A stretch of 21,174 bases of DNA from a virus. How positions within the stretch are numbered: the stretch's first letter is position 1; the number at the start of each line of letters is the position of its first letter. The notes under the pieces were generated by a model. That model made no database searches and had not been told where the DNA came from. It worked only from the letters and a program-made list of their open reading frames with translations. The DNA lies in the IMG/VR virus record IMGVR_UViG_3300017786_000183, positions 1 to 21,174 of that record; one strand, written 5' to 3'. Made by a program: the position numbers and the translations under genes. Below are positions 1 to 20,040 of the stretch, piece by piece.

Positions 1-900
1 ACAAATAAAGTAATAGCAAGGTTGAATGAAGTTGCATTAACTTCAACAACCTTTTCTAGTGCTAGGGGTATACCAGTTCAATGCCAAAACGCAGTTAATG
101 AATCTATACGTTTTATTAATCAGCGAGAGTTTAACTATCCTTTTAATCATGCTACTGCTACTCAGACACTGACAGCAGGTGTGGTTAGGTATAGTTTACC
201 TACTTCTACTAAGACAGTAGACTACAATACATTTAGAATAGTCAAAGACAGTGACTTAGGTAATAGTGGGTATAAATTAAATCTACTTGATTATAATGAT
301 TATATAAATAGAGTTATAAATCAAGAAGATGAAATAAATACTACAACAACGAGTACAACACACACAGATAGCGTAACAACTATAACTGTTGCAAGTACAT
401 CAGGATTTGATAGTGCAGGTACAATAGTCATAGGTAATGAAACAATTACTTATACGGGAGTAACTAGTACTACATTTACAGGTTGCACAAGAGGTGCGAG
501 TAGCACAACAGCTGCTTCAATAGCTAGTGGTGTCACAGTAGCACAGTTTGATAGAGGTGGTGTTCCTGAATTTGTAGTAAGAACACCTGATAATAATTAT
601 CTTCTATATCCATTTCCAAATAAATCATATGCAATAAAGTTTGATTACTATACATTTCCAAGTGACTTATCAGCACACGGAGACACAACAACTATACCTG
701 ATAGATTTGCACCTGTAATAATAGATGGTGCTACAGCATTTGTATATCAGTATAGAGGTGAGACACAACAATATCAATTAAACTTTGGTAGATTTGAGCA
801 GGGTATAAAAAATATGCAGACCTTATTGGTAAATAAATTTTCATACTTACGTTCAACATTTATAGCTAGGACAGGTAGTACAGACGTTAGGGCGTTGTAA
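1..900 (+). CDS. Head-to-tail adaptor-like virion protein, 5' end outside window
   Basis: The frame is open to the first base, and codons before the TTG at 22 read TNKVIAR, continuing naturally into LNEVALTSTTF. The gene therefore very likely begins upstream, and an internal TTG start is not needed. The N-terminal part (small helical region with N-x-AVNESIRFINQ and REFNYPF) followed by a beta-rich body resembles the adaptor proteins that sit under the portal in short-tailed phages; this is inference from pattern and position. A Thr/Ser-rich linker leads into a roughly 60-residue beta module (nt 370-549) that also occurs in the next gene. The body resumes after it with GGVPEFVVRTPDNNYLLYPFP. 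Its stop overlaps the next start by one base (TAATG at 898-902), consistent with one structural operon. It could instead be another tail-tube component. Confidence 0.6.
   Translation, partial: TNKVIARLNEVALTSTTFSSARGIPVQCQNAVNESIRFINQREFNYPFNHATATQTLTAGVVRYSLPTSTKTVDYNTFRIVKDSDLGNSGYKLNLLDYNDYINRVINQEDEINTTTTSTTHTDSVTTITVASTSGFDSAGTIVIGNETITYTGVTSTTFTGCTRGASSTTAASIASGVTVAQFDRGGVPEFVVRTPDNNYLLYPFPNKSYAIKFDYYTFPSDLSAHGDTTTIPDRFAPVIIDGATAFVYQYRGETQQYQLNFGRFEQGIKNMQTLLVNKFSYLRSTFIARTGSTDVRAL
370..549 (+). repeat. Shared ~60-residue beta module, copy 1 (in adaptor-like gene)
   Basis: Core residues TSGFDSAGTIVIGNETITYT then TSTTFTGCTRGASSTTA. It matches, with the same order and spacing, the module at 1431-1604 in the next gene. 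The consensus is I-T-V-x-x-TS-x-F-x-S-x-G-x-(L/I)-x-IG-(N/D)-E-x-x-TYTG-x-TSTTFTG-x-x-R-(G/A). It lies between a Thr-rich linker and the resumed protein body, so it looks inserted. Confidence 0.75.
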
Positions 901-2681
901 TGGCAGATGAATCTCAAACATCTCCTTCAGCTTTTAACTGCGAAGGGGGTTTAGTTTTAAACAAATCTACCTTTATGATGCAACCGGGTGAAGCATTAGA
1001 GTTGAGAAACTTTGAACCTGCTGTTGATGGTGGCTACAGAAGAATAAATGGTTATTCAAAGTATGTGTCAGCAGTTGTACCTTTTACATCTAGTTCTGCT
1101 GAAAAGGTACTTATGGTAGCAACTTTTGGTGATGTTGTATTAGCAGCTAGAGGTACTAGTATATTTAGTGCGACTCCGGGTGGTTCATCGTGGACTAGTA
1201 GAGATAGTGGCAGAACAGGTGCAGGTAAGTATAACTTTGAACGGTTTAACTTTGATGGCACAGATAAAATAATAGTAGTAGATGGTGCAAATGCACCTAC
1301 GGTATTTAATTCTAGTTTAGCTGCAGCAGATATTGCTGTAGATACTGTGGGTACAGGACAATCTACATCCTTGCTTGTGGCTATTGCTTCAGGTACAGGT
1401 ATGAGTACAGGAGGAGGTGCTAGTGGAGGTACTATAACAGTTCCTGATACATCTCAATTTAATAGCTCTGGCTCTTTACTTATAGGTGATGAATTATTTA
1501 CTTACACAGGTAAAACTAGCACAACTTTTACAGGTGTCGATAGAGCAACATCAAGCAGTGTTGCCGCAGACCATGCAGTTGGTGCGTTAGTAGCAGACCA
1601 ATTTCCTCCTGCTGTAGCAGGTGCTAAACATGTTGCTGCTTTTAAAAACCATATGTTTTATGCAGGTATGAGTGCAAACAAACAAGAAGTTGTATTTAGC
1701 TCGCCATTTCAAGAAGGCTCTCTTAAAGTATCTATTGGAGCAGGTAGTTTTAAAGTTGATGATGAGATAACTGGAATTAAAGTTTTCCGTGATAATTTAT
1801 TTATATTTTGTGAAACTAGAATATTTAAACTGTCAGGTAGTTCAGAAGCTAACTTTGCAGTATCAGACGTAACAAGAGACATAGGCTGTATCAATGGTGA
1901 TACAATTCAAGAATTTGCAGGTGACTTAATATTCTTAGGTCCTGATGGATTAAGAACAGTTGCTGGTACTGCAAGAATTGGTGACGTTGAATTGGGTACT
2001 ATAAGTTCTAACGTGCAGTCTATTTTTAATGATAACATAGCTAATGCTACAGAGTTTGAGTCGGCAGTTATAACTGATAAGACACAATACAGAATATTCT
2101 TTACTAAGTCAAGTGTTGGAGAAAATCAAACTAAAGGTATTATATGTGTACTCAAAGGACAGAAGTTTGAGTTCTCTGAAATAGTAGGCATAAGACCTGC
2201 ATGTACAGACAGCTTTGTATCAGAAGGTAATGTAATAGTTTTACACGGTGCATATCAAACAGGGTATATATACAGACAAGAATCAGGTAATACATTTGAT
2301 GGCACTAGTATATTAGGTCGTTATAGAAGTCCTGACTTAACATTTAATGACCCCGGAATACGTAAGCATATGCAAAGAGTTATTGTTAATTATAACCCTG
2401 AAGCAGCGGTAGATGCTGACTTGTTTGTTAGGTATGATTATGAAGATAAAGATTCTCCAAGACCATCAGCCTATCCTTTAGATTCTACAGATGTTGTTGC
2501 TATATACGGCACATCTGTTTATGGAACACCTACATATGGTGGTACATCACAGCCTTTAGTTAGGCAGTCAGTAGAGGGTTCAGGATTTGCTGTAGCATTA
2601 AGAGTGAATGATGGTGGTACAACTGCACCCTATTCATTAAAAGGGTTTCAATTAGAATATCAACTAGGAGCTAGAAGATAA
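900..2681 (+). CDS. Tail stabilisation/stopper protein, P22 gp10-like
   Basis: A 593-residue protein that opens with a short signature (NCEGGLVLNKS ... PGEALELRNFEP ... GGYRRINGY) and then a beta-rich body with repeated hydrophobic strands such as VFRDNLFIFCETRIFKL and FAGDLIFLGPDGLRTV, as expected of a propeller-like fold. This pattern fits the P22 gp10 type of DNA-stabilising, head-closing tail protein, which plugs the portal-adaptor channel in podoviruses. The protein is longer than P22 gp10 (about 470 residues). Part of the difference is an inserted module at residues 178-235 that also occurs in the upstream gene. It starts on an ATG overlapping the upstream stop by one base and is directly abutted by the next gene. 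Assignment rests on motif memory and gene order, so the family is probable rather than certain. Confidence 0.6.
   Translation: MADESQTSPSAFNCEGGLVLNKSTFMMQPGEALELRNFEPAVDGGYRRINGYSKYVSAVVPFTSSSAEKVLMVATFGDVVLAARGTSIFSATPGGSSWTSRDSGRTGAGKYNFERFNFDGTDKIIVVDGANAPTVFNSSLAAADIAVDTVGTGQSTSLLVAIASGTGMSTGGGASGGTITVPDTSQFNSSGSLLIGDELFTYTGKTSTTFTGVDRATSSSVAADHAVGALVADQFPPAVAGAKHVAAFKNHMFYAGMSANKQEVVFSSPFQEGSLKVSIGAGSFKVDDEITGIKVFRDNLFIFCETRIFKLSGSSEANFAVSDVTRDIGCINGDTIQEFAGDLIFLGPDGLRTVAGTARIGDVELGTISSNVQSIFNDNIANATEFESAVITDKTQYRIFFTKSSVGENQTKGIICVLKGQKFEFSEIVGIRPACTDSFVSEGNVIVLHGAYQTGYIYRQESGNTFDGTSILGRYRSPDLTFNDPGIRKHMQRVIVNYNPEAAVDADLFVRYDYEDKDSPRPSAYPLDSTDVVAIYGTSVYGTPTYGGTSQPLVRQSVEGSGFAVALRVNDGGTTAPYSLKGFQLEYQLGARR
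1431..1604 (+). repeat. Shared ~60-residue beta module, copy 2 (in stabilisation-like gene)
   Basis: Core residues TSQFNSSGSLLIGDELFTYT then TSTTFTGVDRATSSS, followed by a DQF end comparable to AQF in copy 1. It is preceded by a Gly-rich linker (MSTGGGASGG). The DNA is still partly alike around the TYTG and TTFTG codons, so the relation is at sequence level and not only in fold. Confidence 0.75.
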
Positions 2682-4871
2682 ATGGGTGATAATTATGTAA
2701 GACAAAAAACGTACACTGATGGTGACGTTATACAAGCAGCTCACACCAATGAAGAGTTTGACCAGCTAGTTGCAGCTTTTGCCGCAAGCAGTGGACACTC
2801 GCATGATGGTACTACAGGTAATGGTGGTGCTATTACTTCACTTGCAAGTAATACAGTAACAATAGGTGCAGGTACAACTAATCAAGACGTTGTTATAACT
2901 TTTGATGGTGAAGAAAGAGATGGACTTTTAAGATGGATAGGTCACGATAATAGTGGTACTGAGGATGACCATTTTAGATTTGATGATGATGTCATGCTTA
3001 ATAGCACTGAAAAACTTTACTTCAATGATACAGGTACTTATATATTCAGTAATGCAGACGGTGACTTAGACTTAGTATCTGATGGCACAAGTGCTGATTC
3101 AATTAAACTAGCTAGTGCTGGTGGTGTTACTTTAGATGCGGCAGGAGATATAACCCTAGATGCAGACGGTGGGGATGTTGTCTTAAAAGATAATGGAACA
3201 CAGTTTGGTTCACTTACTAATACATCAGGTAATCTTATACTTAAATCAGGCAGTACAACTGCTGTAACATTTAGTGGTGCTAATACTACTTTTGCAGGAA
3301 CAGTAACTATAGGTTCTGCTGAAATATCAGAAGCTGAACTAGAAATACTAGATGGTGCTACAGTTACTACTGACGAATTAAATTACAATGACACAGGTGC
3401 ATCTGTAGGTACAGTTGTTGCAAGTAAAACAGTTACAGTAGATGCAAACAAAGATGTATCTTCATTTAGAAACATAACTCTTTCAGGTGAATTAGATGCA
3501 GGGTCACTAGACGTTAGTGGTGATGCAGACATTGATGGTACACTAGAAGCTGATGCTATTACAGTTAATGGTACAGCTTTAGCTACAGTGATAGCAGGAA
3601 CAACAGTTACAACAGCAACAAATGCGAATCATGTTAGTGTTGCTGATAATGAAAATACAAATGAAGAAAACTTAATACCCTTTATAGAAGATGCTTCTGC
3701 AACAGGTAATGTCGGTTTAGAATCTGATGGAGACTTTTCTTACAATCCAAGTACAGGTACAGTTACTGCTACTATATTTAAAGGTAACGTAGATGCTGTA
3801 GATGGTGACTTTGATGGAACACTAGAAGCAGATGCTATAACAGTTGGTGGAGTAGCTTTATCTGAAGTTATATCTGATACAGCAGGAGCTATGTTTTCAA
3901 GTAATACTGAATCAGGTGTTACTGTTACATATCAAGATGCTGACAATACAATAGACGTTGCAATAGATGCAGCACAGACAGGTATTACATCTTTACTTGC
4001 AACAGATATAAAGATTGGTGAAGACAACGAAACAAAGATAGACTTTGAGACAGCCGATGAGATACACTTCTATGCTGCTAATGCTGAACAAGTATATGTA
4101 GCTGATGGCATCTTTGGTCCTCAAACAGATAGTGATGTAGACTTAGGTACAACAGGTGTACGTTGGAAAGATGCTTACATAGATACCATTACTACCACAG
4201 GTGCAATAACCGTAGGTGGTGATTTAACAGTGAATGGTACTACCACTACCGTGAATAGCACAACAGTCACTATAGATGACCCTATCTTCACTCTAGGTGG
4301 TGATTCTGCTCCGGGTTCAGATGACAACAAAGATAGAGGTATTGAGTTTAGATATCACAATGGTTCTGCAGCTAAAGTAGGTTTCTTTGGTTGGGATGAC
4401 AGTGCGAGTGCTTTTACTTTTATAGCAGATGCATCTAACTCTTCAGAAGTATTTAGTGGTACAGCAGGTAATGCAATCTTTACAAATGTCACAGGTACAT
4501 TACAAACTGCAGCTCAAGCTAACGTAACATCACTAGGAACACTAACTGCTCTAACCGTTGACAATATAGCAATGGATGGAGCTACAATAGGTCATACAAG
4601 TGACACAGACTTAATTACATTAGCTAGTGGTGTAGTTACTGTAGCAGGTGAAGTCTCTATGACTACACTTGATATAGGTGGTACTAATGTAACTTCTACT
4701 GCAGCAGAGTTAAATATACTAGCAGGTAAAAGTTTCGTAGATGAAGATGATATGTCTTCTAATAGTGCAACAGGCATAGCATCACAGCAATCTATTAAAG
4801 CCTACGTAGATAGCAGTGTCGGTTCAGCAGCAAGTAAAGGCTTTGCCACAGCTATGGCAATAGCATTATAA
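2682..4871 (+). CDS. Tail fibre-like virion protein with internal repeats
   Basis: A 729-residue protein, very rich in Asp, Gly, Thr, Ser and Ala and poor in Cys, typical of elongated beta-structured phage fibres. The N-terminus (about residues 1-55) has the YTDGDVIQAAHTNEEFDQL and GHSHDGTTGNGGAI pattern that I associate with the virion-attaching end of marine phage fibres. The shaft carries repeats: GTLEADAITV occurs twice (encoded near 3539 and 3818), and SEAELEILDGA (near 3330) echoes AAELNILAGK (near 4704). The C-terminal part has GIASQQSIKAYVDSS, a common fibre ending before a short helix. There is no S74 autoprotease or recognisable lectin domain. It starts directly after the upstream stop and is followed by the only promoter-bearing gap in the window. 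Whether it is a fibre, a spike or a head fibre cannot be decided. Confidence 0.65.
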   Translation: MGDNYVRQKTYTDGDVIQAAHTNEEFDQLVAAFAASSGHSHDGTTGNGGAITSLASNTVTIGAGTTNQDVVITFDGEERDGLLRWIGHDNSGTEDDHFRFDDDVMLNSTEKLYFNDTGTYIFSNADGDLDLVSDGTSADSIKLASAGGVTLDAAGDITLDADGGDVVLKDNGTQFGSLTNTSGNLILKSGSTTAVTFSGANTTFAGTVTIGSAEISEAELEILDGATVTTDELNYNDTGASVGTVVASKTVTVDANKDVSSFRNITLSGELDAGSLDVSGDADIDGTLEADAITVNGTALATVIAGTTVTTATNANHVSVADNENTNEENLIPFIEDASATGNVGLESDGDFSYNPSTGTVTATIFKGNVDAVDGDFDGTLEADAITVGGVALSEVISDTAGAMFSSNTESGVTVTYQDADNTIDVAIDAAQTGITSLLATDIKIGEDNETKIDFETADEIHFYAANAEQVYVADGIFGPQTDSDVDLGTTGVRWKDAYIDTITTTGAITVGGDLTVNGTTTTVNSTTVTIDDPIFTLGGDSAPGSDDNKDRGIEFRYHNGSAAKVGFFGWDDSASAFTFIADASNSSEVFSGTAGNAIFTNVTGTLQTAAQANVTSLGTLTALTVDNIAMDGATIGHTSDTDLITLASGVVTVAGEVSMTTLDIGGTNVTSTAAELNILAGKSFVDEDDMSSNSATGIASQQSIKAYVDSSVGSAASKGFATAMAIAL

Positions 4872-4882
4872 TAAGATTTTAC

Positions 4883-4911
4883 TTGACAAAATAAGCAATA
4901 CCGAGTATAAT
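4883..4911 (+). promoter_or_regulatory. Consensus sigma-70 promoter upstream of 4934 gene
   Basis: A perfect -35 hexamer TTGACA at 4883-4888 is followed, after exactly 17 bases, by a perfect -10 hexamer TATAAT at 4906-4911. The expected start of transcription is near 4918, giving a leader of about 16 bases that contains AAGGA at 4922-4926, seven bases before the ATG at 4934. The promoter lies in the only plus-strand gap long enough to hold one. Function is inferred from the match to bacterial consensus. Confidence 0.88.
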
Positions 4912-4933
4912 TATATAACATAAGGAAAAAGAA

Positions 4934-5269
4934 ATGGCACAAGATTTTGAAAGAACCATTACCAAAGACATAGATGCATCTCTTGTAGATATAAGAGCTA
5001 CGTCAAATAGTGATGATGCAATAGTTGGTATACGGATGGCTAATACGCACACTGCACAGATAACTGTAGACGTAGCTATTACTGACAATAGTGGTACTGT
5101 AACAGCTTACTTAATTAAATCTGCACCTATACCTGTCGGTGGTGCATTAGAGTTAATAGATGGTGGTTCAAAAATAATATTACAAACAGGTGATAAACTA
5201 CAAGCGAAGTCAAGTGTAACAAATTCACTTGATGTTGTTGTCTCAGCAGTTGATACTATTAGTGAATAG
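4934..5269 (+). CDS. Small beta-rich virion-associated protein
   Basis: A 111-residue protein first in the transcript from the consensus promoter just upstream, with an AAGGA ribosome site seven bases before its ATG. The sequence alternates hydrophobic and polar residues (TAQITVDVAITDNSGTVTAY, then APIPVGGALELIDGG, GDKLQAKSS, LDVVVSAV), which points to a single beta-sandwich. The IPVGGALEL/GG-I-LQTGD-L pattern is one I associate with small conserved proteins in marine phage fibre regions, perhaps head decoration or fibre-base proteins. No signal peptide, membrane segment or catalytic motif is visible. Its own strong promoter suggests it may be made earlier or in larger amounts than the proteins upstream, as expected for a high-copy decoration protein; that is inference. 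Confidence 0.5.
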   Translation: MAQDFERTITKDIDASLVDIRATSNSDDAIVGIRMANTHTAQITVDVAITDNSGTVTAYLIKSAPIPVGGALELIDGGSKIILQTGDKLQAKSSVTNSLDVVVSAVDTISE

Positions 5270-5277
5270 GAGATAGA

Positions 5278-6117
5278 ATGGCATATATAGGAAACTCATC
5301 ACCTAGTAGGTTTGTATCTAATAGAACAAAAACTGCTTTTTCAGGTAACGGTATCTTAGTTGACTTTACACTAGAACAAGCTGTTGTTCAACCTGAAGAT
5401 GTCCTAGTATCAGTAGATGGTGTTATACAAGAGCCAACCGTTGCTTATGGAATCATTAACGGAACTACATTAAGATTTACAGAAGCACCTTCTAGCAATG
5501 CAGGTAATAATATATTTGTGTATTATCTAGCTAGTCAGGTGGGTACAGCAGGACCACCTAATGATTCAGTAAGCACAGATACTTTAAAAAATAGTGCAGT
5601 TACTAATGCCAAAGTTGCAAACAGCACATTAGACCTTACATCTAAGGTTACTGGTGTATTGCCATTTGCAAATGGTGGTAATCAAACTGCATCTATAGCT
5701 GCTTATAAATGGGGTGCATTAGACCAAGATGATGCTAATACAACAATTCCAGCTACAATATCTGGTTCTAGTAGTATTATGGTTAATGTAGGAAGTGATT
5801 TAGCCACTAGTGGTGTTTATACTTGCCCAGTTGATGGTGTGTATAGAGCAACTATTTGGGGTATGGCAGGTGGAGATGGTACTAATAATTCTCAATCAAG
5901 TATTTTTAGTTGTTATCTTTCATTAAATGATGCCTTTCCAAGTGATGACCAGTATAGCATATATGTTAGCCCTGCTACTACTTATTCACAGTTTTCAGCT
6001 AACTTTCTAATTACTTGTAGTGCAACTAATACATTAAGGTGGGGCATACAAGCTAATAGACGAACTTTACACGCATCACATGGGCAAGCAACATTCAAAT
6101 TGGAGCATCAAACATAA
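5278..6117 (+). CDS. Tail fibre protein with C1q-like C-terminal domain
   Basis: A 279-residue protein with AGGAG shortly before its ATG. Residues 1 to about 95 form an attachment-type domain (MAYIGNSSPSRF, then FSGNGILVDFTLEQAVVQ and VSVDGVIQEP) whose start resembles that of the 6662 gene. Short shaft-like repeats follow (DTLKNSAVTNAKVANSTLD). The C-terminal half reads like a C1q/TNF-type jelly roll: a strand ending GVYTCPVDGVYRATIWG, further strands, and a final FKLEHQT. In phages such trimeric domains form fibre tips that bind the cell surface. The fold assignment is a pattern judgement. The stop overlaps the next start by one base. Confidence 0.6.
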   Translation: MAYIGNSSPSRFVSNRTKTAFSGNGILVDFTLEQAVVQPEDVLVSVDGVIQEPTVAYGIINGTTLRFTEAPSSNAGNNIFVYYLASQVGTAGPPNDSVSTDTLKNSAVTNAKVANSTLDLTSKVTGVLPFANGGNQTASIAAYKWGALDQDDANTTIPATISGSSSIMVNVGSDLATSGVYTCPVDGVYRATIWGMAGGDGTNNSQSSIFSCYLSLNDAFPSDDQYSIYVSPATTYSQFSANFLITCSATNTLRWGIQANRRTLHASHGQATFKLEHQT

Positions 6118-6653
6118 TGGCATTAACTCAAATAACAGGTGATGGATTAGCACCAAGTGGATTTCCTACAAATTCTGTAATACAAGTTAAATATTTTCAA
6201 CTTACAACTTCTCAAGATGAAGCATATGGAACAGCTAGTGCTAGTCAAGCAATAACTAATTTTACAGTTAATATAACACCTACGGCTTCAAATTCAATTT
6301 TTAAACTTGAATCTAATATAATATATGAATCAGCTAATGCTACACATAGTACAATGTGGTTTTTCTTTAGAGGTACTACAAAATTAGCGAACACTGATGG
6401 GTCTCCCGGAAATAGAATTATTGGTATATCTCCGGGATTAACATCTTTAGATGCAAATGCTGAATCAACTTTTGAACAGGCATCATTAGTTTATTTTGAT
6501 GCTCCATCAACAACGTCTGCAATAGATTATAAGGTGGGTGTAATGACAACTGGAACTAATAATTTTTTTATTAATAGAACTGTTGATGATACTAACACAA
6601 CTAGTTTTGACAGAGGTGTATCCTTTCTGTCAGTAACAGAGATAGCAGGGTAG
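6117..6653 (+). CDS. Putative fibre tip or fibre-accessory protein
   Basis: A 178-residue, beta-rich protein starting on an ATG that shares one base with the upstream stop. It begins MALTQITGDGLAPSGFP, then VIQVKYFQL, and continues as alternating hydrophobic strands (FTVNITPTASNSIFKLESNIIYE, split here by polar turns) to VSFLSVTEIAG. The opening TQITGDGLA with a later VIQV strand is a pattern I associate with marine phage tail proteins whose remainder folds as a receptor-facing beta-sandwich. It has no coiled coil, Cys pair or protease motif. Coupling to the C1q-like gene suggests the two proteins act at the same fibre, as fibre plus tip or as alternative tips. I cannot name a family. Confidence 0.45.
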   Translation: MALTQITGDGLAPSGFPTNSVIQVKYFQLTTSQDEAYGTASASQAITNFTVNITPTASNSIFKLESNIIYESANATHSTMWFFFRGTTKLANTDGSPGNRIIGISPGLTSLDANAESTFEQASLVYFDAPSTTSAIDYKVGVMTTGTNNFFINRTVDDTNTTSFDRGVSFLSVTEIAG

Positions 6654-6661
6654 GAGATAAC

Positions 6662-8041
6662 ATGGCATACATAGGAACATCTCCTTCAAATGGAGTTAGA
6701 CGAGTCTTTGATTACACAGCTACTGCTGGACAGGACACATTTCAAAGTACAGATAATAATGGGCAGTCTCTTGTATACACAGACAGTGCCTACATAGACG
6801 TATATCAAAATGGTATCTTACTTTTACCTTCTGACTACGTAGCAACTTCAGGTACTACCGTTGTACTAGACGTACCTGCGATATTAGAAGACACAGTTCA
6901 AATTGTAGCATATGATGTGTTCTCCGTAGCTGACACAGTAAGTGCTAGTGATGGTGGTTCATTTGCAGGTAATGTAGGAATAGGTGGTACTCTTGCTGTT
7001 ACAGGTGCTTTAACAGGAACTACAGCGACATTTACAACTGATGATAACAACCCACAACTTACATTAATATCTACTGATGCAGATGCGAGTAGTGGTCCTG
7101 TTTTAGAGCTATATCGCAACTCATCAAGTCCTGCTGATGATGATGTTTTGGGTGAAATAGAGTTTCATGGAGAAAATGATGCAGACGAAAAAATACAATA
7201 TGGACTTATTGCTGCTAAACTTCAGGATGCTTCAGATGGAACTGAAGATGTTAGATTAAGTTTTAAAACAATAACAGCAGGTACTGAAAGAGAAAGAATT
7301 ACAATTCAGCCAACCGAAACTGTATTTAATGAAGATAGTCAAGACCTAGACTTTCGTGTTGAATCAAATGGCAATGCAAATATGATTTTTGTTGATGGTG
7401 GTAATGACAAAGTTGGTATAGGAAATAATAACCCTAATGATTTTGGAAGTCTTGCTGCTGATTTAGTTATAGGAACAACATCAGGAGAACATGGTTTAAC
7501 TATTGTTACTGGTACTGATGCTAGTGCAAGAATGCAATTTGCTGATAACACATCTTCTCCATTTGTTGGTGCTATTGAGTATGCTCATGGTAGTAGTAAT
7601 TCTCTTATATTTTATACTGATGGTTCATCACGATTAACTATTAATGCTACAGGAAATTTAGTAAGTCCTGCAACATATTCCTCTACAACTGCAAATGCTA
7701 CAAATATGAGAGTTGAATCTAATGGAGTTTTTGTAAGGTCAACTTCTTCAAGACGATATAAAAACACTATAGAAGATGCAACTAAAGGTCTTGCAGAATT
7801 ACAAACATTAAGACCAGTAACGTATAAAGGTAATAATGATGGAGAAAAAGTTTTTGGTGGATTGATTGCTGAAGAAGTACATGATGCAGGATTAACAGAG
7901 TTTGTTGAGTATAATGAAAATGACGAACCTGATGCTTTAGCTTATGGTCATATGGTTTCGTTGTGTATCAAAGCAATTCAAGAACTTAAAACAGAACTTG
8001 ATGAAGCAAAAGCTAGAATTACAGCATTGGAGAGCAAATAA
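6662..8041 (+). CDS. Tail fibre/spike with self-cleaving S74 chaperone domain
   Basis: A 459-residue protein preceded by TAGGAGATAAC. Residues 1 to about 105 are an attachment domain starting MAYIGTSPSNGVRRVF, with YIDVYQNGILLLPSDYV. The middle is a repetitive beta shaft (GNVGIGGTLAVTG, DNKVGIGNNNPNDFG-like). Residues 361-459 match the Peptidase_S74 intramolecular chaperone: TSSRRYKNTIE, then LRPVTYKG, FGGLIAEEV, a YGHMVSL segment and a final helix with heptad spacing. By comparison with the canonical SDxRxK motif, the Ser-Lys dyad would be S362 and K367, with Ser replacing the usual Asp at 363. Such domains trimerise the fibre and then cut themselves off, which would leave a mature protein of about 361 residues. 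It is coupled to the next gene by a TAATG overlap. Confidence 0.82.
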   Translation: MAYIGTSPSNGVRRVFDYTATAGQDTFQSTDNNGQSLVYTDSAYIDVYQNGILLLPSDYVATSGTTVVLDVPAILEDTVQIVAYDVFSVADTVSASDGGSFAGNVGIGGTLAVTGALTGTTATFTTDDNNPQLTLISTDADASSGPVLELYRNSSSPADDDVLGEIEFHGENDADEKIQYGLIAAKLQDASDGTEDVRLSFKTITAGTERERITIQPTETVFNEDSQDLDFRVESNGNANMIFVDGGNDKVGIGNNNPNDFGSLAADLVIGTTSGEHGLTIVTGTDASARMQFADNTSSPFVGAIEYAHGSSNSLIFYTDGSSRLTINATGNLVSPATYSSTTANATNMRVESNGVFVRSTSSRRYKNTIEDATKGLAELQTLRPVTYKGNNDGEKVFGGLIAEEVHDAGLTEFVEYNENDEPDALAYGHMVSLCIKAIQELKTELDEAKARITALESK

Positions 8042-8397
8042 TGAGTAAAGCAGCAAAATTAGCAGTCATAGCAGGTAGAGCAGATACACTAGTAGACACA
8101 ACTAATACAGGTGATGTGGCACTTAACTTTGGACAGTATCAAAACTTCATCTTAACTTTTACAGATAATGTAGTATTTACTAATCCAACTACAGAAGCTA
8201 TAGGTCAATCAGGGTTTATTATTTGTATACAAGATGGAACAGGTAGTCGTGGTTTAACACTTAATGGAGACTATGAGACAGCAGGTGGTGTAGGCATTAC
8301 ATTAAGCACCAATGCTAACACAGTTGATATGATACCTTACGTGGTTCAGTCAGCTAGTAACATATTATTAGGACACGTACAAAAGGGTTTTGCATAG
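8041..8397 (+). CDS. Small virion protein between fibre genes
   Basis: A 118-residue protein encoded between two fibre genes with one-base overlaps on both sides (TAATG at its start, TAGTG at its end). After a short basic N-terminus (MSKAAKLAVIAGRA) it alternates hydrophobic strands with polar turns: VALNFGQYQNFILTF, then GFIICIQDGTGSRGLTL, and VDMIPYVVQSASNILLGHVQKGF. This reads as a small all-beta domain resembling the terminal piece found at the end of some phage fibres, here as a separate gene. It may be a fibre tip, a connector for the next protein or a chaperone-like partner. There is no membrane segment and no catalytic motif. The family is not recognised with certainty. Confidence 0.5.
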   Translation: MSKAAKLAVIAGRADTLVDTTNTGDVALNFGQYQNFILTFTDNVVFTNPTTEAIGQSGFIICIQDGTGSRGLTLNGDYETAGGVGITLSTNANTVDMIPYVVQSASNILLGHVQKGFA

Positions 8398-10940
8398 TGA
8401 CATTTAATGGCAATGGTAATTTAACAGGGTCAGCACAATACTTTAATGATAAGGTATTCTATAATGGTGTTGCTACACAGTCATTGAGGTTTGATGATGG
8501 CAGTTCTCATAAATTGACTAAAGACTTTAGTGGCTCTTCTCCTGATAATGATAAAAAAATGACCATAAGTGTGTGGGTAAAAAGAGGGAATTTATCTGGA
8601 AGCACCCAAGTTATTATTGGTAATTATAATTCTGTTCGCTTTTTAGGAGAATTGGCTTGGGATGGAACAGATAAATTACGTTTTGACCCCGGAGGTGATG
8701 GCAATGGTTCTTCAAATTCTTATAGAGTAGAAACAACTGCTTTATTTAGAGATGTTAGTGCTTGGTATCACATTGTTCTAGCATATGATTCAACACAAGG
8801 CACAGATACTAATAGAGTTAAACTTTATGTAAATGGCACACAACAAACACTAACTGCACCATCTGGTCAGTCATTTCCTCCACTAAATTATGCACATCTT
8901 TATTCCTATGCAGGGGCAAATAATACAATAGGAGAGTTTGGAGCAGGTTTTAATTCTGGTTTTTTAGATGGATATTTATCTGAATTTAATTTTATAGATG
9001 GACTTTCATTTTTTTCTGATACATCAGGAACTCCAAATACATCATTTAATATTAACTCATTTGGTGAAACAAAAAATGGTGTATGGATAGCCAAAGAGTA
9101 TGAGGGTTCATATGGCACTAATGGATATAGATTAGAGTTTAAACAAACTGGAACTGGTACTGCATCAACATCAACAATAGGTGCAGATACAAGTGGAAAT
9201 AATAATCATTGGACATCTAGTGGTATAGTCGCATCTGATTGTGCCATGCCTGATAGTCCTGAGAATAATTTTCCTACGTTAAATCCTTTAGTTGTTACTG
9301 CTTCAGCAACAAACTCTTATGCAGAGGGTAATTTGCAAGGTGGAACTAGCAGTACTGGTGGTGGTAATATAACTGCAACTATGGCAATACCATCTGAAGG
9401 CAAATGGTATTGGGAATTTAAGTCTACCACTATAGGAAGTGGCATAAATTTAGGTTTATGGGAGCCAGATGCTAATGAAGATTTTTTTTACCAAGTTACA
9501 CCTAGTATTGCTTATTTAAGTAATGCCAACAAAAGAATAAATAACTCAACTACAAGTTATGGAGCAAGTTGGGATAGTTCAAACATAATAGGTGTTGCTG
9601 TTGACATTGATGGTGGAACAGTAACCTTTTATAAAGACAATGCAAGTCAAGGTGCTATAACTTTTGATGGAAGTGGGTTATTACCAGTTTTTGGTGATAA
9701 TACTGGTGGTTCAGGCTGTACTGCAAAAATTAATTTTGGTCAAGACCCAAGTTTTTCAGGTACATTAACTGGTGATGATATAGGAACTGAAACACCAAGT
9801 AATGGAGTAGGAGTATTTAAATATGCACCACCAACAGGCTATCTAGCATTATGTTCAGCTAACTTACCTGAACCAACCATAGGTCCTAATGTTGCTACAC
9901 AAGCTGATAATTATTTTAATACAGTTCTTTGGACTGGGAATGGTACTAATCCAAGAACTATAAGTGGTGTAGGTTTTCAGCCAGATTGGATTTGGCATAA
10001 ACCCCGTAACTTAGGCTATAACCATTTAGCTTGGGATAGTTCAAGAGGAGCAGGTTCAAATAGCCTACTAACACTTTTTCCAAATCTTACAAATGACGAG
10101 TCTGATTCCTTGCAAAGTCAAGGTAATGCCACATCATTTGATAGTGATGGATTTATTGTAAATGCAGGTTCATCTGGTGATAATCATGTAAATGATGCAA
10201 GTTATAATTATGTAGCGTGGAACTGGAAAGCAAATGGTGGCACAACCTCAAGCAATACAGATGGCTCTATAACAAGTACAGTACAAGCAAACACAACGGC
10301 AGGGTTTAGTATTGTTACTTATACTGGTAATGGAACAAATGGTGCAACTATTGGACATGGTTTAGGTGTTAAACCTGCTATGATTTCATTTAAGAATAGA
10401 GATTCAACAGCAGGTTGGGCAACATATCACAAAGAATTGGGTGCTACTAAGTTAATTTATCTTGATTTGACTAACGCATCAACTTCATCAGATGCTCATC
10501 TTAATAATACAGAACCAACAGATACCTTGATAACATTACATGACCACGTTTTAACAAATTCATCAGATGATTATGTAGCCTATTGTTTTGCAGAGATAGA
10601 GGGTTACAGCCGTTTTGGCAGTTTTCTTGGAAACGGTGATGCTGATGGTGCGTTTGTTCATACTGGATTTCGCCCTGCTTGGCTTATGGTGAAAAGATAT
10701 GATTCAACTAATAATTGGCACATTTGGGATACTACAAGAGGAACTTCAAATCCAATGGGTAGTGGTTCACTATTAGTTGCTGATGATGTTTATTATGAAT
10801 CGCAACTTGGTTCAGTATTAGACATTCTAAGTAATGGCTTCAAACCTCGTGCTAATTCTAATGGTTATAATGGTTCTGGTGCTTCATACATATATATGGC
10901 ATTTGCCGAAACCCCTTTTAAGTATGCTAATGCAAGATAG
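8397..10940 (+). CDS. Large multidomain receptor-binding fibre: LamG, SPRY-like, three C-terminal repeats
   Basis: An 847-residue protein that starts on GTG (TAGTG overlap with the upstream stop; AAAAGGG lies about nine bases before it). Residues about 25-200 look like a LamG/concanavalin-type jelly roll (MTISVWVKRG, WYHIVLAYD, VKLYVNGT, GYLSEFNFIDG). Residues about 333-451 resemble a SPRY domain (EGKWYWEF, NIIGVAVDIDGGTVTFYKDN, GLLPVFGDN, INFG). The rest is three repeats starting near residues 505, 636 and 733, each with a TGNGT- or LGNGD-type opening, G(F/L)xP-W or A, K-x-R, W and then a YVAW/YVAY/YIYM-type closing strand; the protein ends FKYANAR. These carbohydrate-binding-type folds point to host-surface recognition. 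It is the longest product of the fibre block and is followed by the assembly-like gene. Confidence 0.7.
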   Translation: MTFNGNGNLTGSAQYFNDKVFYNGVATQSLRFDDGSSHKLTKDFSGSSPDNDKKMTISVWVKRGNLSGSTQVIIGNYNSVRFLGELAWDGTDKLRFDPGGDGNGSSNSYRVETTALFRDVSAWYHIVLAYDSTQGTDTNRVKLYVNGTQQTLTAPSGQSFPPLNYAHLYSYAGANNTIGEFGAGFNSGFLDGYLSEFNFIDGLSFFSDTSGTPNTSFNINSFGETKNGVWIAKEYEGSYGTNGYRLEFKQTGTGTASTSTIGADTSGNNNHWTSSGIVASDCAMPDSPENNFPTLNPLVVTASATNSYAEGNLQGGTSSTGGGNITATMAIPSEGKWYWEFKSTTIGSGINLGLWEPDANEDFFYQVTPSIAYLSNANKRINNSTTSYGASWDSSNIIGVAVDIDGGTVTFYKDNASQGAITFDGSGLLPVFGDNTGGSGCTAKINFGQDPSFSGTLTGDDIGTETPSNGVGVFKYAPPTGYLALCSANLPEPTIGPNVATQADNYFNTVLWTGNGTNPRTISGVGFQPDWIWHKPRNLGYNHLAWDSSRGAGSNSLLTLFPNLTNDESDSLQSQGNATSFDSDGFIVNAGSSGDNHVNDASYNYVAWNWKANGGTTSSNTDGSITSTVQANTTAGFSIVTYTGNGTNGATIGHGLGVKPAMISFKNRDSTAGWATYHKELGATKLIYLDLTNASTSSDAHLNNTEPTDTLITLHDHVLTNSSDDYVAYCFAEIEGYSRFGSFLGNGDADGAFVHTGFRPAWLMVKRYDSTNNWHIWDTTRGTSNPMGSGSLLVADDVYYESQLGSVLDILSNGFKPRANSNGYNGSGASYIYMAFAETPFKYANAR
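9912..10940 (+). repeat. Three C-terminal protein repeats within the 8397 gene
   Basis: Repeat A (about residues 505-625) opens VLWTGNGTNPRTISGVGFQP and includes WDSSRGAGS and YVAWNWK. Repeat B (about 636-732) opens VTYTGNGTNGATIGHGLGVK, includes KNRDSTAGW and ends YVAYCFAEIEGY. Repeat C (about 733-847) opens GSFLGNGDADGAFVHTGFRP, includes WHIWDTTRG and ends YIYMAFAETPF. They are diverged, so this is an old protein-level triplication rather than recent DNA repeats. Confidence 0.75.
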
Positions 10941-10949
10941 GAGAAAATA

Positions 10950-11417
10950 ATGGCGTGGTTACAAAATAAAAAAATTCTAAAAGTTGGTAAGAGTTTTACT
11001 GATGATAAAGGATTTAAACATCCCTATAATTGGGTAAGTATATATTCATCTGCCTATAAAAAGAAATGGGGTATCACTTGGAAAGATGAGCCTGATACTA
11101 GTTACGATGCTAGGTTTTATACTGCAAAAGACATTGAAAGAAAGATAGATGACCTCAAGGCTACGTGGATTGCTACCACAAAAACAACAGCTAATAGTCT
11201 TTTACGAAGTACTGATTGGTATGTGACTAGAAAAGCTGAAGTTGGAACTGCTATACCTTCTGATGTTACTAAATTTAGAACAGCAGTTAGGGATGCAACA
11301 GTCACAATAGAAAAAGCTATTAATGCTTGTTCAGAGTTAGATGGATTCAAGGCATTGTTTGACACACCTAAAGATGGTGGCAATGCTGTAATGTATAACT
11401 TTCCTAAAAGTATTTAA
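10950..11417 (+). CDS. Putative tail fibre assembly-like protein
   Basis: A 155-residue soluble protein with AGGAG ahead of its ATG, directly after the largest fibre gene. The N-terminal third is basic and aromatic (MAWLQNKKILKVGKSF, HPYNWVSIYSSAYKKKWG, TWKDEPDTSYD). The C-terminal part has LLRSTDWYVTRKAEVGTAIP, then TKFRTAVRDA. This recalls the conserved L-x-x-TDW-x-x-x-R-x-x-E-x-G-x-x-(I/V)-P-x-x-x-x-x-(Y/F)R-x-A-(L/V)R block near the end of tail fibre assembly and tail assembly chaperone proteins. Position right after fibre genes fits that role. The N-terminal part is not one I recognise, and here the protein could equally be a virion component. The stop touches the next start. Confidence 0.5.
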   Translation: MAWLQNKKILKVGKSFTDDKGFKHPYNWVSIYSSAYKKKWGITWKDEPDTSYDARFYTAKDIERKIDDLKATWIATTKTTANSLLRSTDWYVTRKAEVGTAIPSDVTKFRTAVRDATVTIEKAINACSELDGFKALFDTPKDGGNAVMYNFPKSI

Positions 11418-11612
11418 ATGAAAATGAGTATGCAACCTGAATTAAAAGTACAACTAGAGCTTGATGCACACGAAAAAGAATGTGCTATCAGGTATCAGAT
11501 GGTCAATGATAAACTAGAAGGTTTAGACAAAAGAATGTGGCGAATAGAAGCTATGTCTATGGTGGGAACTTTAGGTGTAGTAGCTTTGGTTGTCGCAATA
11601 GTAATGAAGTAA
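11418..11612 (+). CDS. Coiled-coil plus single-TM small protein; holin or XhlA-like candidate
   Basis: A 64-residue protein. Residues about 8-44 form a charged helix with heptad-like spacing (VQLELDAHEKECAIRYQMV, then DKLEGLDKRMWRIEAM). Residues about 46-63 form one hydrophobic segment (MVGTLGVVALVVAIV) with a final MK. The layout, N-terminal amphipathic coil and C-terminal membrane anchor, is that of XhlA-type haemolysin/holin-accessory proteins and some phage holin partners. It follows the upstream stop with no gap. Three in-frame ATGs (11418, 11424, 11430) are available and no clear ribosome site is seen, so the true start is uncertain and translation may be coupled. No endolysin is encoded next to it, so a lysis role is inference; a virion or regulatory membrane protein is possible. 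Confidence 0.5.
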   Translation: MKMSMQPELKVQLELDAHEKECAIRYQMVNDKLEGLDKRMWRIEAMSMVGTLGVVALVVAIVMK

Positions 11613-11621
11613 GGATAGAGT

Positions 11622-13940
11622 ATGCAAACATTAAATAACTTACCTGAAGAAATGCAAATGGTTATTGCTAGGAACTTAGGTTATGATGGAAAGAAAGAAG
11701 GTTTTCCTGCCTATCTAATGTCCAATAGAAGAGTAGCAGATAAGTATACTGCTTTAGAAAATGCATTTAAAGGACAACAAGAGTTTAGACAACAGGCATT
11801 ACAACAGAAGATGGCTGAGGGTGGTTTAATGAAACCCTTTGAGCAGAATCAACAACAGCCTATGGTTGGAGGTTACGTACCACCCCCCAAGCAATCCTTT
11901 GCAACAGGTGGTCAAGTAGCAGGGATAACTACAACTATGCCTACTGCTCCTACAATAAATGCTCCTGACAAACAACAGTATAACTTTGGAATACCTGAAG
12001 CTATAGAGCAAAATCCGGACTTTGGAAAGATAGTTGGTGGACCTGCTTTACCACCTGTTATAGACCCTAATTTACCTAACCCTGACCCTACTCCACCTGC
12101 ATCTACAGTCAATGTAGAAACAACGCCTACAGTAGCACCCCCATCACAAAACTTTACAGGTACAACTAGAGAGGTTGTTGACACTAATCAATTTCTAGAA
12201 GATGGAACAACTCCTAATCCTAACTATAATAAACCTGTTTTAGGTGAGGATGGTAACCCTCTTACAGAAGAAGTAGGACCAACGATAGGAGATGTGTCTT
12301 CTCAAATGTTGACAACTCCCGGATTACCTGCTGGTTCAGAGGTACAAACAGTTGCTACAACTGCTACAGGAGACCAATTAGTAGGTGATAGTGTAGGTCA
12401 ACTAACAGGTGATGTTGCATTAGGAACTGCACAAGCAAGTACAACCACAATAAATCAACAGGATGCTACAAGTGCTAACACAATGACAGCAGATACAGTA
12501 GCAACAGATGTTAATAAAGCTGTAGAAAACTTAAAGGGTGCAACAACAGTACTAGACTTGCAGTCTCAAGTATCAGCAGCACAACAAGAAACAAGTGCTG
12601 TATCTGGATTAGAAGCAGAGCAGGGTGTAGCCACAACAATGGAAAATCCTGTACAAAGAGAGATACAGGATGGTGAATTAATATCAGGTGCGGCTAATGC
12701 TGAAAAAGCAGCTAAGTATACTGAACAAATACAAGCAGCCACAGCATTACCTAGTGAAAAAGCTACTGTTCAAGGACAACTAGCAGGTCTTACTGCTAAC
12801 TTTGATTCTAATAATCCACCACCTTGGGCTGCAGGAACATTACGTGCTGTATCAGCTAAGATGGCAGCTAGAGGAATGGGTGCATCATCAATGGCAGGGC
12901 AGGCTATGCTACAAGGTGCATTAGAGTCAGCACTTCCTATAGCACAAGCAGATGCCGCAACAACTGCAAGTTTTGAAGCACAGAATTTATCTAACAGACA
13001 AGCTAGAGCAATGTTAGCAGCAGAGCAACGTGCTACTTTTCTAGGGCAAGAGTTTGACCAAGAATTTAAAGCAAGAGTGCAAAACTCTGCTAGGATAGGT
13101 GACATAGCTGATAAGAACTTTACTGCTGAACAACAGATAGCACTAGAAAATGCTAAAGCTGCCCAGACAATGAACCTACAAAATCTAAGTAACAAACAAG
13201 CTCTTGTTATGGCTGAAGCCGCAGCACTTGCAGACTTAGACATGGCTAACTTAAGTAATAGACAACAGGCTGCTGTACAAAATGCAAATGCTTTCTTACA
13301 AAAGGATATGGCTGAACTATCTAACCAACAACAAGCAGATATGTTTTCAGCACAACAACAAGTACAAGCTTTGTTTACTGACCAAGCAGCCACAAATGCG
13401 GCTAAACAATTTAATGCTACGTCAGAAAATCAAGTAGACCAATTCTTTGCTTCTCTGACACAGGCGGCTAATCAGTTTAATGCATCACAGACAAATGCAC
13501 AAGAACAGTTTAATGCAGGTCAAACAAATACAATAGAAAGATTTAATGCAGAGATTAATAACCAACGTGACCAATTCAATGCACAGAATCAAACTGTTAT
13601 AGCACAGAGTAATGCTAATTGGAGAAGACAAATAGCAACAGAGGGAACTGCCGCCACCAATCGTGCTAATGAATTAAATGCTCAGAACATATTAGGTATA
13701 AGTCAAACTGCTTACAATAATTTATGGCAACACTATGGAGACACAATGGAGTGGGCATGGACATCAGCAGAGAATGAAAGAAGTCGTGTTATTGAATTAG
13801 CAATGGCTCAATTACAAGCTGACAGTGCTACTAATATACAAGCAATGAAAGACGATACAGCATCATCAACTGCTTTTGGTGGATTGATAGGTAAATTTAT
13901 TACAGGTAGCATATTTGGAGGAGGAGGAGGATTATTCTAA
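11622..13940 (+). CDS. Large internal-virion-type protein with 11-residue helical repeat array
   Basis: A 772-residue protein with AAGGA ahead of its ATG. Residues 1 to about 75 are helical and charged (NLPEEMQMVIARNLGYDG). Residues about 85-330 are Pro-, Thr-, Gln- and Gly-rich and probably disordered (PPPKQSFATGGQVAG, NPDPTPPASTVNVETTPTVA). From residue 455 the chain follows an unbroken 11-residue period for at least 20 units (to 674), with Asn at the first position of most units, then less regularly to about 707. The end is a hydrophobic Gly-rich tail (KFITGSIFGGGGGLF). Gene order after the fibres and before two further large proteins fits an internal core or ejection protein that forms a helical conduit on infection, by analogy with T7-type internal virion proteins; no clear family match is claimed. 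No enzyme motif is seen. Confidence 0.6.
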   Translation: MQTLNNLPEEMQMVIARNLGYDGKKEGFPAYLMSNRRVADKYTALENAFKGQQEFRQQALQQKMAEGGLMKPFEQNQQQPMVGGYVPPPKQSFATGGQVAGITTTMPTAPTINAPDKQQYNFGIPEAIEQNPDFGKIVGGPALPPVIDPNLPNPDPTPPASTVNVETTPTVAPPSQNFTGTTREVVDTNQFLEDGTTPNPNYNKPVLGEDGNPLTEEVGPTIGDVSSQMLTTPGLPAGSEVQTVATTATGDQLVGDSVGQLTGDVALGTAQASTTTINQQDATSANTMTADTVATDVNKAVENLKGATTVLDLQSQVSAAQQETSAVSGLEAEQGVATTMENPVQREIQDGELISGAANAEKAAKYTEQIQAATALPSEKATVQGQLAGLTANFDSNNPPPWAAGTLRAVSAKMAARGMGASSMAGQAMLQGALESALPIAQADAATTASFEAQNLSNRQARAMLAAEQRATFLGQEFDQEFKARVQNSARIGDIADKNFTAEQQIALENAKAAQTMNLQNLSNKQALVMAEAAALADLDMANLSNRQQAAVQNANAFLQKDMAELSNQQQADMFSAQQQVQALFTDQAATNAAKQFNATSENQVDQFFASLTQAANQFNASQTNAQEQFNAGQTNTIERFNAEINNQRDQFNAQNQTVIAQSNANWRRQIATEGTAATNRANELNAQNILGISQTAYNNLWQHYGDTMEWAWTSAENERSRVIELAMAQLQADSATNIQAMKDDTASSTAFGGLIGKFITGSIFGGGGGLF
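12984..13643 (+). repeat. Twenty-unit 11-residue (33-nt) repeat array
   Basis: Reading from N455 in steps of 11, units begin NLSNRQARAML, AAEQRATFLGQ, EFDQEFKARVQ, NSARIGDIADK, and so on; 13 of 20 units start with Asn. Four units have (N/E)LSN(R/K/Q)Q, and later units end in (Q/R)F followed by NA, so the DNA shows near-identical CAGTTTAATGCA-type stretches every 33 bases between about 13407 and 13590. Later steps (GTAATNRANEL, NAQNILGISQT) keep the phase. Confidence 0.85.
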
Positions 13941-14131
13941 TGAATACTAACCCAGCATTAAATGCATATCGCAAGATTAAAGAACAAAAAGAAGAACCAA
14001 AAACTAATAAAGCAGGTGGTCTGCTAACACGTAGCAATGCTATTAAACGTGCAGGTAAGGCTGACCCTAAAGAAGAAGTGTCCATGCGAGTAGCTAGATA
14101 CGTAAATGATATAAGGAATTACAATGCCTGA
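13940..14131 (+). CDS. Small basic hypothetical protein in virion operon
   Basis: A 63-residue protein starting on an ATG that shares a base with the upstream stop and overlapping the next gene by eight bases. It is rich in Lys and Arg (AYRKIKEQKEEPK, RSNAIKRAGKADPKEE) and ends in a likely helix (SMRVARYVNDIRNYNA). It has no hydrophobic segment, Cys or enzyme motif. Tight placement between a large internal-type protein and a conserved-looking 167-residue protein suggests an accessory virion or assembly factor. I do not recognise a family. That it is a real gene rests on its fit between two overlapping neighbours. Confidence 0.6.
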   Translation: MNTNPALNAYRKIKEQKEEPKTNKAGGLLTRSNAIKRAGKADPKEEVSMRVARYVNDIRNYNA

Positions 14132-14627
14132 AGCACAACAACCCTCATTTAGCCGACCTATTCCCGGACAATCTCTCACAGCAGAGTTGGGTAATAGACC
14201 GTGGCAATCACCACCACAGTATTCTACACTAGAAGAAGCTATGGATTGGTACTTAGAAAGATTTGATAGTCAAGAAGTTATTGATGAACTTATGGCTGTT
14301 CTTGAATCAGGTATACCTATTAGTACTGTTGCTAACTCTATGCAGTTGGGTGCTGTCTTACAAGGTGTTCACAGTGTAGATGTAGGTGTATTGGTTATGC
14401 CTATAATTATGGAGATGATGAAATACCTAGCAGATAAAACAGATACTAAATATAAGATGGGTGATGAACCTGAAGAAACAGATAAACCTACAGATGCAGT
14501 AATGACATCAGCACTTAACGAATTAAAGAACCAACAACAAGGCTCTATGGAAACAGAGCCAATGGAAGAAGAGGAAGAAGAAGAACCAATGCCTGAACAG
14601 TCAGGTCTAATGGCAAGGAGAGCTTAA
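14124..14627 (+). CDS. Hypothetical virion-operon protein with acidic tail
   Basis: A 167-residue protein. It opens with a Pro-rich stretch (SRPIPGQSLTAELGNRPWQS, PPQYSTLEEAMDWYLERF) followed by helices and a hydrophobic but probably soluble centre (GIPISTVANSMQLGAVLQGV, HSVDVGVLVMPIIMEMMKYL). The last 30 residues include an uninterrupted acidic run (MEEEEEEEPMPEQ). The GNRPW-PPQYST-EEA-DWYL pattern with GIP and HS-DVGVLV-P is one I recall from hypothetical proteins of marine podoviruses next to their large internal proteins; no function is known to me. Its ATG overlaps the small basic gene by eight bases, and the stop overlaps the next ATG by one. The acidic tail may pair with its strongly basic neighbour, which is speculation. 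Confidence 0.65.
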   Translation: MPEAQQPSFSRPIPGQSLTAELGNRPWQSPPQYSTLEEAMDWYLERFDSQEVIDELMAVLESGIPISTVANSMQLGAVLQGVHSVDVGVLVMPIIMEMMKYLADKTDTKYKMGDEPEETDKPTDAVMTSALNELKNQQQGSMETEPMEEEEEEEPMPEQSGLMARRA

Positions 14628-19425: not shown

Positions 19426-19436
19426 ACCTAGTGACT

Positions 19437-19811
19437 TTATCTATCATCACCTGAACCTGCAAGCGTACCACGTTCTTTCCTATCATGTAATTTCTCTAAG
19501 TTATTCTGCATAATAGTATTTAAACTGACACCCAACTCATTAGCTAATACAGCACAGTACCAAAGAACATCTCCTATTTCATAGGCTATAGCTTCTTTGT
19601 TTCCTTTGCCATCACGTATTATCTTTTTTATTTTACCTGCTACCTCACCTGCTTCACTTGTTAAGCCTAGAGCTAGATACTCTAAGGCTTTTTCTTGTGG
19701 AAAGATAGCTGTGCTTTTTGCTCGTGCTTCATAAAAGTCAGCAGTCATTACTTCTGCTGTAACTATGTTATTCTGCATGTACTTCTTCGCTTCTTCTTCT
19801 AGCTTCAACAT
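19437..19811 (-). CDS. MazG-like nucleotide pyrophosphohydrolase
   Basis: A 124-residue all-alpha protein with the metal-binding motif of the MazG/NTP-PPase superfamily: GLTSEAGEVAGKIKK supplies E53 and E56, and AYEIGDVLWY supplies E78 and D81 (ExxE-21-ExxD), followed by the usual LANELGVSLNTIMQNNLEKL helix. These enzymes hydrolyse nucleoside triphosphates to monophosphates and pyrophosphate; in phages they are thought to shape nucleotide pools or the alarmone response. The ATG at 19811 follows AAGGTG and overlaps the upstream gene by 44 bases. Internal Met12 and Met22 are alternative starts, and the core only needs residues from about 22. It is the last gene of the minus-strand block, next to the RNR, which fits a nucleotide-supply role. 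Confidence 0.88.
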   Translation of the reverse strand: MLKLEEEAKKYMQNNIVTAEVMTADFYEARAKSTAIFPQEKALEYLALGLTSEAGEVAGKIKKIIRDGKGNKEAIAYEIGDVLWYCAVLANELGVSLNTIMQNNLEKLHDRKERGTLAGSGDDR

Positions 19812-20040
19812 TCTTCACCTTCTTTAATTGCTGTGCATATGCAGAGTTATAACCACGTGACCACTCTCGTGACTGCATGGTGTTAGAGTTATAAGGATTC
19901 TCTGTCATAATAACCTTATTACCTCTGACAGTTTTTACATACTGTCTACCCTTGAAAGCATTGAAACCCCTCTCGAATTGTATTCGTAAGGGAGCATCAT
20001 ACTTACTTAGATTTGGATTCCTTTTCTTTCTGTGTTGCAT
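19768..20040 (-). CDS. Small basic protein resembling ribosome modulation factor
   Basis: A 90-residue basic protein. I place the start at the ATG at 20040 because AAGGAG lies eight bases upstream; the frame stays open to a TTG at 20058, but that would put the ribosome site inside the gene. With this start, residues 22-31 read FERGFNAFKG, residues 48-50 are NPY and residues 58-68 read REWSRGYNSAY. The order G-x-x-A-x-x-G ... (N/C)PY ... W-x-x-G(Y/W) is the layout of RMF, the small protein that drives 70S ribosomes into inactive dimers, and of RMF-like proteins. The region between them is longer than in RMF, and the ends differ, so this is a remote resemblance. A ribosome- or nucleic-acid-binding role is inference. 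It overlaps both neighbours. Confidence 0.5.
   Translation of the reverse strand: MQHRKKRNPNLSKYDAPLRIQFERGFNAFKGRQYVKTVRGNKVIMTENPYNSNTMQSREWSRGYNSAYAQQLKKVKNVEARRRSEEVHAE

Follow-up and report, generated by a model that had tools for sequence, protein, structure and literature searches.

The window, a 21,174-nt stretch of viral DNA (positions 1 to 21,174 of IMG/VR record IMGVR_UViG_3300017786_000183), carries the hexamers TTGACA and TATAAT between a gene of tail-fibre type and the gene of a 111-aa virion protein. The features around this putative promoter are as follows:

2682–4871, plus strand: upstream gene of tail-fibre/structural type, 729 aa (PHROG 697 structural protein, E 3.8e-41)
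4872–4933, plus strand: intergenic gap of 62 nt, from the list of open reading frames, with nothing recognisable besides the putative promoter
4883–4888, plus strand: −35 hexamer TTGACA, read directly, exact consensus
4889–4905, plus strand: spacer of 17 nt, read directly, with ACCGAG as its right half
4906–4911, plus strand: −10 hexamer TATAAT, read directly and conserved like the −35 hexamer
4912–4933, plus strand: probable discriminator, transcript start (A4917/A4918) and 5′ leader, judged from the sequence, with the Shine-Dalgarno sequence AAGGA at 4922–4926
4934–5269, plus strand: 111-aa virion structural protein, predicted jelly roll, the first gene past the putative promoter
5278–10940, plus strand: fibre-type cluster, which the promoter would also transcribe unless a terminator lies in between
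5278–6117, 6117–6653 and 8041–8397, plus strand: fibre-cluster genes (list of open reading frames and profile matches)
6662–8041, plus strand: fibre-cluster gene with a Peptidase_S74 chaperone
8397–10940, plus strand: fibre-cluster gene with SPRY and DUF7483

The preliminary description of the window had reported TTGACA, 17 bases and TATAAT as an exact match at 4883–4911, and both the direct reading and a consensus scan bore this out. The arrangement is unique in the record when both strands are searched and is the sole 12/12 match among the 53 promoter-like sites in positions 1–20000. In 100 dinucleotide-preserving shuffles of the window, 12/12 sites at spacings of 16–18 nt on both strands averaged 0.03, and at least one appeared in 3 of the 100 shuffles. 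Weaker promoter-like sites are, overall, no more numerous than expected (53 found vs 67.8 expected), so only the perfect site stands out. The spacing lies within the 16–18 nt of sigma-70-type promoters, and the site shares with their consensus both hexamers, the 17-nt spacing, and fitting distances to the start and the Shine-Dalgarno sequence; TG is absent from the extended −10 position. Transcription is expected to start at the usual distance past a −10 hexamer. The purines A4917/A4918 sit 6–7 nt past it, and AAGGA precedes the ATG at 4934 by 7 nt, both of which fit a start near 4917/4918 and agree with the start near 4918 named in the preliminary description. Its placement of the site in the only non-coding plus-strand gap holds for gaps longer than 9 nt, but shorter ones exist, all other plus-strand gaps measuring 9 nt or less. 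A second site at 4843–4872 (11/12, 18-nt spacing) was rejected as a decoy because it falls in the coding sequence that closes the upstream gene (FATAMAIAL and stop), and its equivalent is also present in relatives that have no promoter. The 729-aa protein ends in KGFATAMAIAL, and this C-terminal end is conserved. No Rfam family matched the window at the gathering threshold.

Homologues of the 111-aa protein are annotated as structural in HMO-2011, HTVC103P and other phages. Its AlphaFold2 model is a jelly roll (pLDDT 91, pTM 0.83), for which the best VIA-align match was the trimeric cement protein of KHP40 (7dou; Z 10.3, rmsd 2.8, 105 aligned residues); several unrelated jelly rolls ranked next, at Z 9.4 and below. 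The predicted product resembles the KHP40/KHP30 cement protein and the HFTV1 turret protein in fold and size, at a sequence identity of about 9%. Because the fold is common, a jelly roll is weak evidence of a cement role, and we refer to the product as a predicted cement-like jelly roll. The Pfam family PCuAC was rejected for this protein, as its score of 20.6 bits lies below the cut-off of 29.4. Homologues of this virion protein (110 aa) are also encoded directly 3′ of a fibre gene in several groups of marine phages that otherwise differ, some with and some without an RNA polymerase of their own.

By its proteins, the window most likely belongs to an HMO-2011-type marine phage. The C-terminal end of its ribonucleotide reductase (RNR; 20821–21147) is 76.9% identical to that of HMO-2011, and its 593-aa protein is 59.6% identical to the HMO-2011 counterpart. 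Judged by protein identity, HMO-2011, of the group described in PMC9038755, is the isolate nearest to the window at two genes. The genes for RNR and MazG at the convergent end of the late arm (19437–21174) and the convergent long gene follow the order of HMO-2011, in which RNR and then MazG are likewise convergent with the late arm and the same junction promoter is found. The two differ in the spacer and leader at the junction, and a TGn extended −10 occurs in HMO-2011 only. The 21-kb record covers only the rear of the late arm, with the replication module and the early region outside it. None of 257 stretches with the promoter pattern in a cellular genome collection encodes a relative of the 111-aa gene.

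We surveyed the junction between the tail-fibre gene and the gene of the 111-aa virion protein in relatives that were retrieved by protein, regardless of promoter, and in annotated phages. Each protein query contributed its 80 best loci, out of 161, 524 and 437 relatives found, so all junction fractions describe this retrieved set and not natural frequencies. The 412 rows yielded 244 distinct junctions; 78 of them, reached only via promoter-pattern scans or other non-protein fetches, were dropped before counting, which left 166. HTVC104P's own row was left out of the count. Gap length, measurable in 162 of the 166, was bimodal, with 12–31 nt in 84 junctions and 46–65 nt in 78. A 12/12 promoter occupied 72 of the 78 long gaps (71 with 17-nt spacing and one with 16-nt spacing), and the remaining six, all with 17-nt spacing, matched at 11/12 (one) or 10/12 (five). 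In the six short gaps of 28–31 nt, the best match was 4–8/12. By lengths and promoter content, therefore, long gaps and promoters coincide. Shuffled long gaps reached 12/12 in 11 of 156,000 cases. TG at the extended −10 position accompanies 36 of the 71 perfect 17-nt sites, mainly HMO-2011-like ones.

Among isolates, the junction promoter was found in HMO-2011 (on SAR116) and in HTVC103P and HTVC104P (on SAR11). It was absent from the other annotated phages checked: HTVC019P, HTVC010P, HTVC100P, HTVC203P, HTVC035P, HTVC106P, HTVC115P, Lederberg, Hodr, CRP-9, 023Pt and HTVC033P, whose gene at the junction position was not picked up by tblastn as a relative of the 111-aa protein. The promoter is missing from about half of the orthologous junctions in the retrieved set, including those of phages with an identical 111-aa protein, which indicates that it is not essential.

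To compare the hexamers with the spacer, we aligned 77 long-gap junctions at 17-nt spacing, leaving out L459 (16-nt spacing); 71 of the 77 are 12/12 across both hexamers. The sets consist of related sequences, and since hexamer and spacer columns have one shared history, the comparison between them is fair. In the window's clade (15 junctions), none of the 12 hexamer columns and 5 of the 17 spacer columns were variable. The corresponding numbers were 0/12 and 15/17 in the HTVC103P-like clade (22 junctions), and 4/12 and 17/17 in the HMO-2011-like rest (40 junctions, including the six imperfect ones). For the three sets pooled, 4 of 36 hexamer columns varied vs 37 of 51 spacer columns (Fisher P 7e-9). 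The spacer half ACCGAG is common to the window's own clade only, and the element sits at the same place despite the divergence of the spacers, the leaders and the proteins, the last being about 50% identical. These alignments indicate that the hexamers are under selection relative to the spacer. The preliminary description had held that hexamers varying within a conserved gap would speak against a promoter; the opposite was found, with the hexamers fixed and the spacer and leader diverging. The conservation of the gap, which it had also suggested checking, takes the form of gap and promoter being present or absent together.

In a protein tree, promoter-bearing and promoter-less junctions are interleaved. 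On this tree, which has 109 columns only for 139 rows, the long-gap label changes at least 12 times, at least seven of these changes being forced by well-supported branches, vs 44 changes for shuffled labels. Junctions L003 and L004, and likewise L010 and L013, have identical tree rows, yet the promoter differs within each pair. L013 and L017 share 97.0% identity across 1962 aligned columns, with gaps in 49. The alignment of such neighbours shows one clean 47-column block missing in L013, L003, L018 and L021; the 47-bp block spans from just past the stop region to just before the Shine-Dalgarno sequence, and TATAA borders it on both sides in L013, L003 and L018. Loss of the cassette via pairing of the short TATAA repeats is the simplest reading of these alignments, although the block may have been gained instead.

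The HTVC103P-like clade has only 11–12 nt from the end of the −10 hexamer to the ATG in 22 of 22 junctions, and AGGA lies between the −10 hexamer and the expected start (L047–L058, L060–L065, L223 and others). At this distance, AGGA would precede the first base of the mRNA made from this promoter, which is predicted to be nearly leaderless. Tentatively, we put forward the possibility of a portable, all-or-none host promoter cassette of about 47 bp and maximal consensus that phages of marine alphaproteobacteria have acquired and lost time and again at a single junction. This would uncouple the dosage and timing of the cement-like protein and the fibre (probably receptor-binding) cluster from the remainder of the late programme, and in HTVC103P-like phages, where the promoter overlaps the ribosome-binding site, the own mRNA would be nearly leaderless while the read-through mRNA keeps its Shine-Dalgarno sequence.

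The junction promoter has companions in the late arm of relatives. Whole-genome scans gave two 12/12 sites in HMO-2011 vs 0.06 in shuffles, three in G002 vs 0.10 and three in G005 vs 0.05. The genomes were scanned in pieces; those of three records overlapped by about 100 bases, which slightly inflates the expected counts, sites across piece borders in G records would have been missed, and positions 1–3999 of HTVC033P and the last 33 bases of G003 stayed unscanned. With the HMO-2011 proteins placed on the relatives, three recurring late-arm promoters were located at the head of the arm, at the coat gene and at the fibre junction. The head promoter, before the phage1322_71 homologue, is 12/12 in HMO-2011, G002, G003 and G005 and 11/12 in G001. 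The coat-gene promoter, TTGACA-16-TATAAC, was found by the genome scan in all five HMO-2011-like genomes or contigs examined (HMO-2011 37617, minus strand; G001 13533; G002 17440; G005 14243; G003 46326), 225–242 nt upstream of the coat gene. The junction promoter occurs in HMO-2011, G001, G002 and G005, and not in G003. Leaders of the head and coat promoters are roughly 105–200 nt long, that of the junction being by far the shortest. The non-coding leader of the coat promoter is partly conserved in alignment and may be a structured RNA. Palindromic, operator-like CACTTAARTG repeats were also observed in HMO-2011 (53219–53340), G001 (439–498) and G002 (3764–3835); eight of the nine sites in these three sit in the head-promoter leader, and neither G003 nor G005 nor the window has such repeats.

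As for the polymerase, PF00940 (T7-type polymerase) was searched for in 11 records: HMO-2011, HTVC103P, HTVC104P, HTVC033P, six long relatives (three of them fragments shorter than 30 kb) and the control HTVC019P. It was not found in 10 of them, the single match being the positive control, and HTVC019P, which has its own T7-type polymerase, carries no such promoter at the junction. The sigma regions PF04542 and PF04545 had no match in seven of seven relative records. With neither a T7-type polymerase nor a sigma factor in the relatives checked, the host RNA polymerase with its main sigma factor is the most likely user. This assumes that the site matches the sigma factor of the window's own host.

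Taken together, these comparisons make it very probable that 4883–4911 is a host-type promoter of the sigma-70 family, close to the maximal consensus, within the virion operon of an HMO-2011-type phage. The host RNA polymerase holoenzyme, presumably with the main sigma factor, would bind 4883–4911, start near 4917/4918 and proceed through 4934 onward. The added transcripts of the 111-aa protein and the fibre cluster would supplement read-through from upstream. Since the scan detected no plus-strand terminator-like site from 4911 to 12781, read-through to the fibre cluster is plausible. The conservation pattern lends support to the earlier proposal that such a promoter could serve the genes from 4934 onward independently of upstream genes, and calling these decoration/fibre genes suits a first gene with a predicted cement-like jelly roll and next genes that include predicted fibre-type proteins. 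Because the late arm of relatives is served by up to three such promoters, we infer that the junction promoter may boost the latter half of what is a very long late operon. Very strong consensus promoters can escape slowly, so perfect hexamers are no proof of high output. In addition, a phage-encoded regulator outside known families could change the timing of the promoter.

Other explanations differ in what the site is and in when and by what it is used. The probability of a chance match of an AT-rich gap to the consensus is negligible: the window is AT-rich and its weaker promoter-like sites are no commoner than in shuffles, but 0.03 perfect sites are expected in the window, and the recurrence of the same element at the same junction, with fixed hexamers amid diverged spacers, leaders and proteins, rules chance out. 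The site might instead be a recombination or attachment site, or a protein-binding roadblock, that resembles a promoter. Its coming and going as a TATAA-flanked 47-bp block at the border of a variable fibre gene would suit such a site, yet conservation covers exactly the two hexamers and the distance between them and not the whole block, the spacer and flanks vary between clades, and comparable promoters stand before both the coat gene and the late arm; we regard a role outside transcription as highly improbable. A phage-encoded polymerase or sigma factor as the user is conceivable in that the early region of the window's own genome lies outside the record, but the lack of these domains in the non-control relatives searched and the housekeeping character of the consensus make it very unlikely.

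A promoter that is real but early or constitutive, with the cement-like protein and the fibres produced ahead of the capsid or expressed by a resident genome, has more in its favour and is nevertheless rather unlikely. The preliminary description had proposed early transcription, or transcription from an integrated or dormant genome, and the analysis found no support for either. Promoters with perfect hexamers need no activator, and the junction has no operator-like repeat, whereas CACTTAARTG palindromes stand in the head-promoter leader of HMO-2011, G001 and G002. These repeats are absent from G003 and G005, however, and we rest no regulatory claim on them. An integrase domain was matched in only three of seven genomes, namely HMO-2011 and G001, in open frames, and G002, where the match (50087–50521, minus strand) contains three in-frame stop codons. 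No match was found in HTVC103P, HTVC104P, HTVC033P or G003, and HTVC103P and HTVC104P nonetheless carry the promoter. We retain the host-type promoter as a supplement to late read-through as our preferred reading.

Extra promoters within a late operon have a precedent in T7, in which class III promoters stand before the capsid gene (phi10) and the tail-fibre gene (phi17). The T7 promoter has 23 bp and is read by the phage's own polymerase. The likeness is one of position, by the capsid gene and the fibre end; unlike in T7, the sequence in the window is the host consensus, and the relatives searched encode no T7-type polymerase. Perfect consensus promoters are uncommon in nature. The kind of element described here is known, and its conservation across the junctions compared is unusually strict and all-or-none.

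For Polarivirus skadi, a pelagiphage without an RNA polymerase, the portions of PMC10504331 available to us report predicted sigma-70 promoters near replication genes. The window differs from what is described there in that its site lies inside the virion operon, is 12/12 and is perfect in most relatives that have it. A map of the junction promoter was not found in the literature, as partly accessible, on HMO-2011, pelagiphages, and Pelagibacter promoters and transcription. The word "promoter" is absent from the main text of PMC9038755 and PMC8528129 in the form available, and the available parts of PMC9004378 and PMC6414667 gave no direct help on the junction promoter. Likewise, a transcription map of these abundant marine phages was not found in the literature searched, a scope that did not include the original HMO-2011 genome paper. 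Neither the strict all-or-none upkeep across several lineages nor the near-isogenic pairs were found described in the portions of the literature examined.

These results supply conserved promoter positions for HMO-2011-type phages, namely the late-arm head, the coat gene and the fibre junction. The near-isogenic natural pairs with and without one promoter make the control of a virion protein by promoter dosage directly testable, and the strict upkeep of perfect promoters raises the question of how they benefit a phage in marine hosts.
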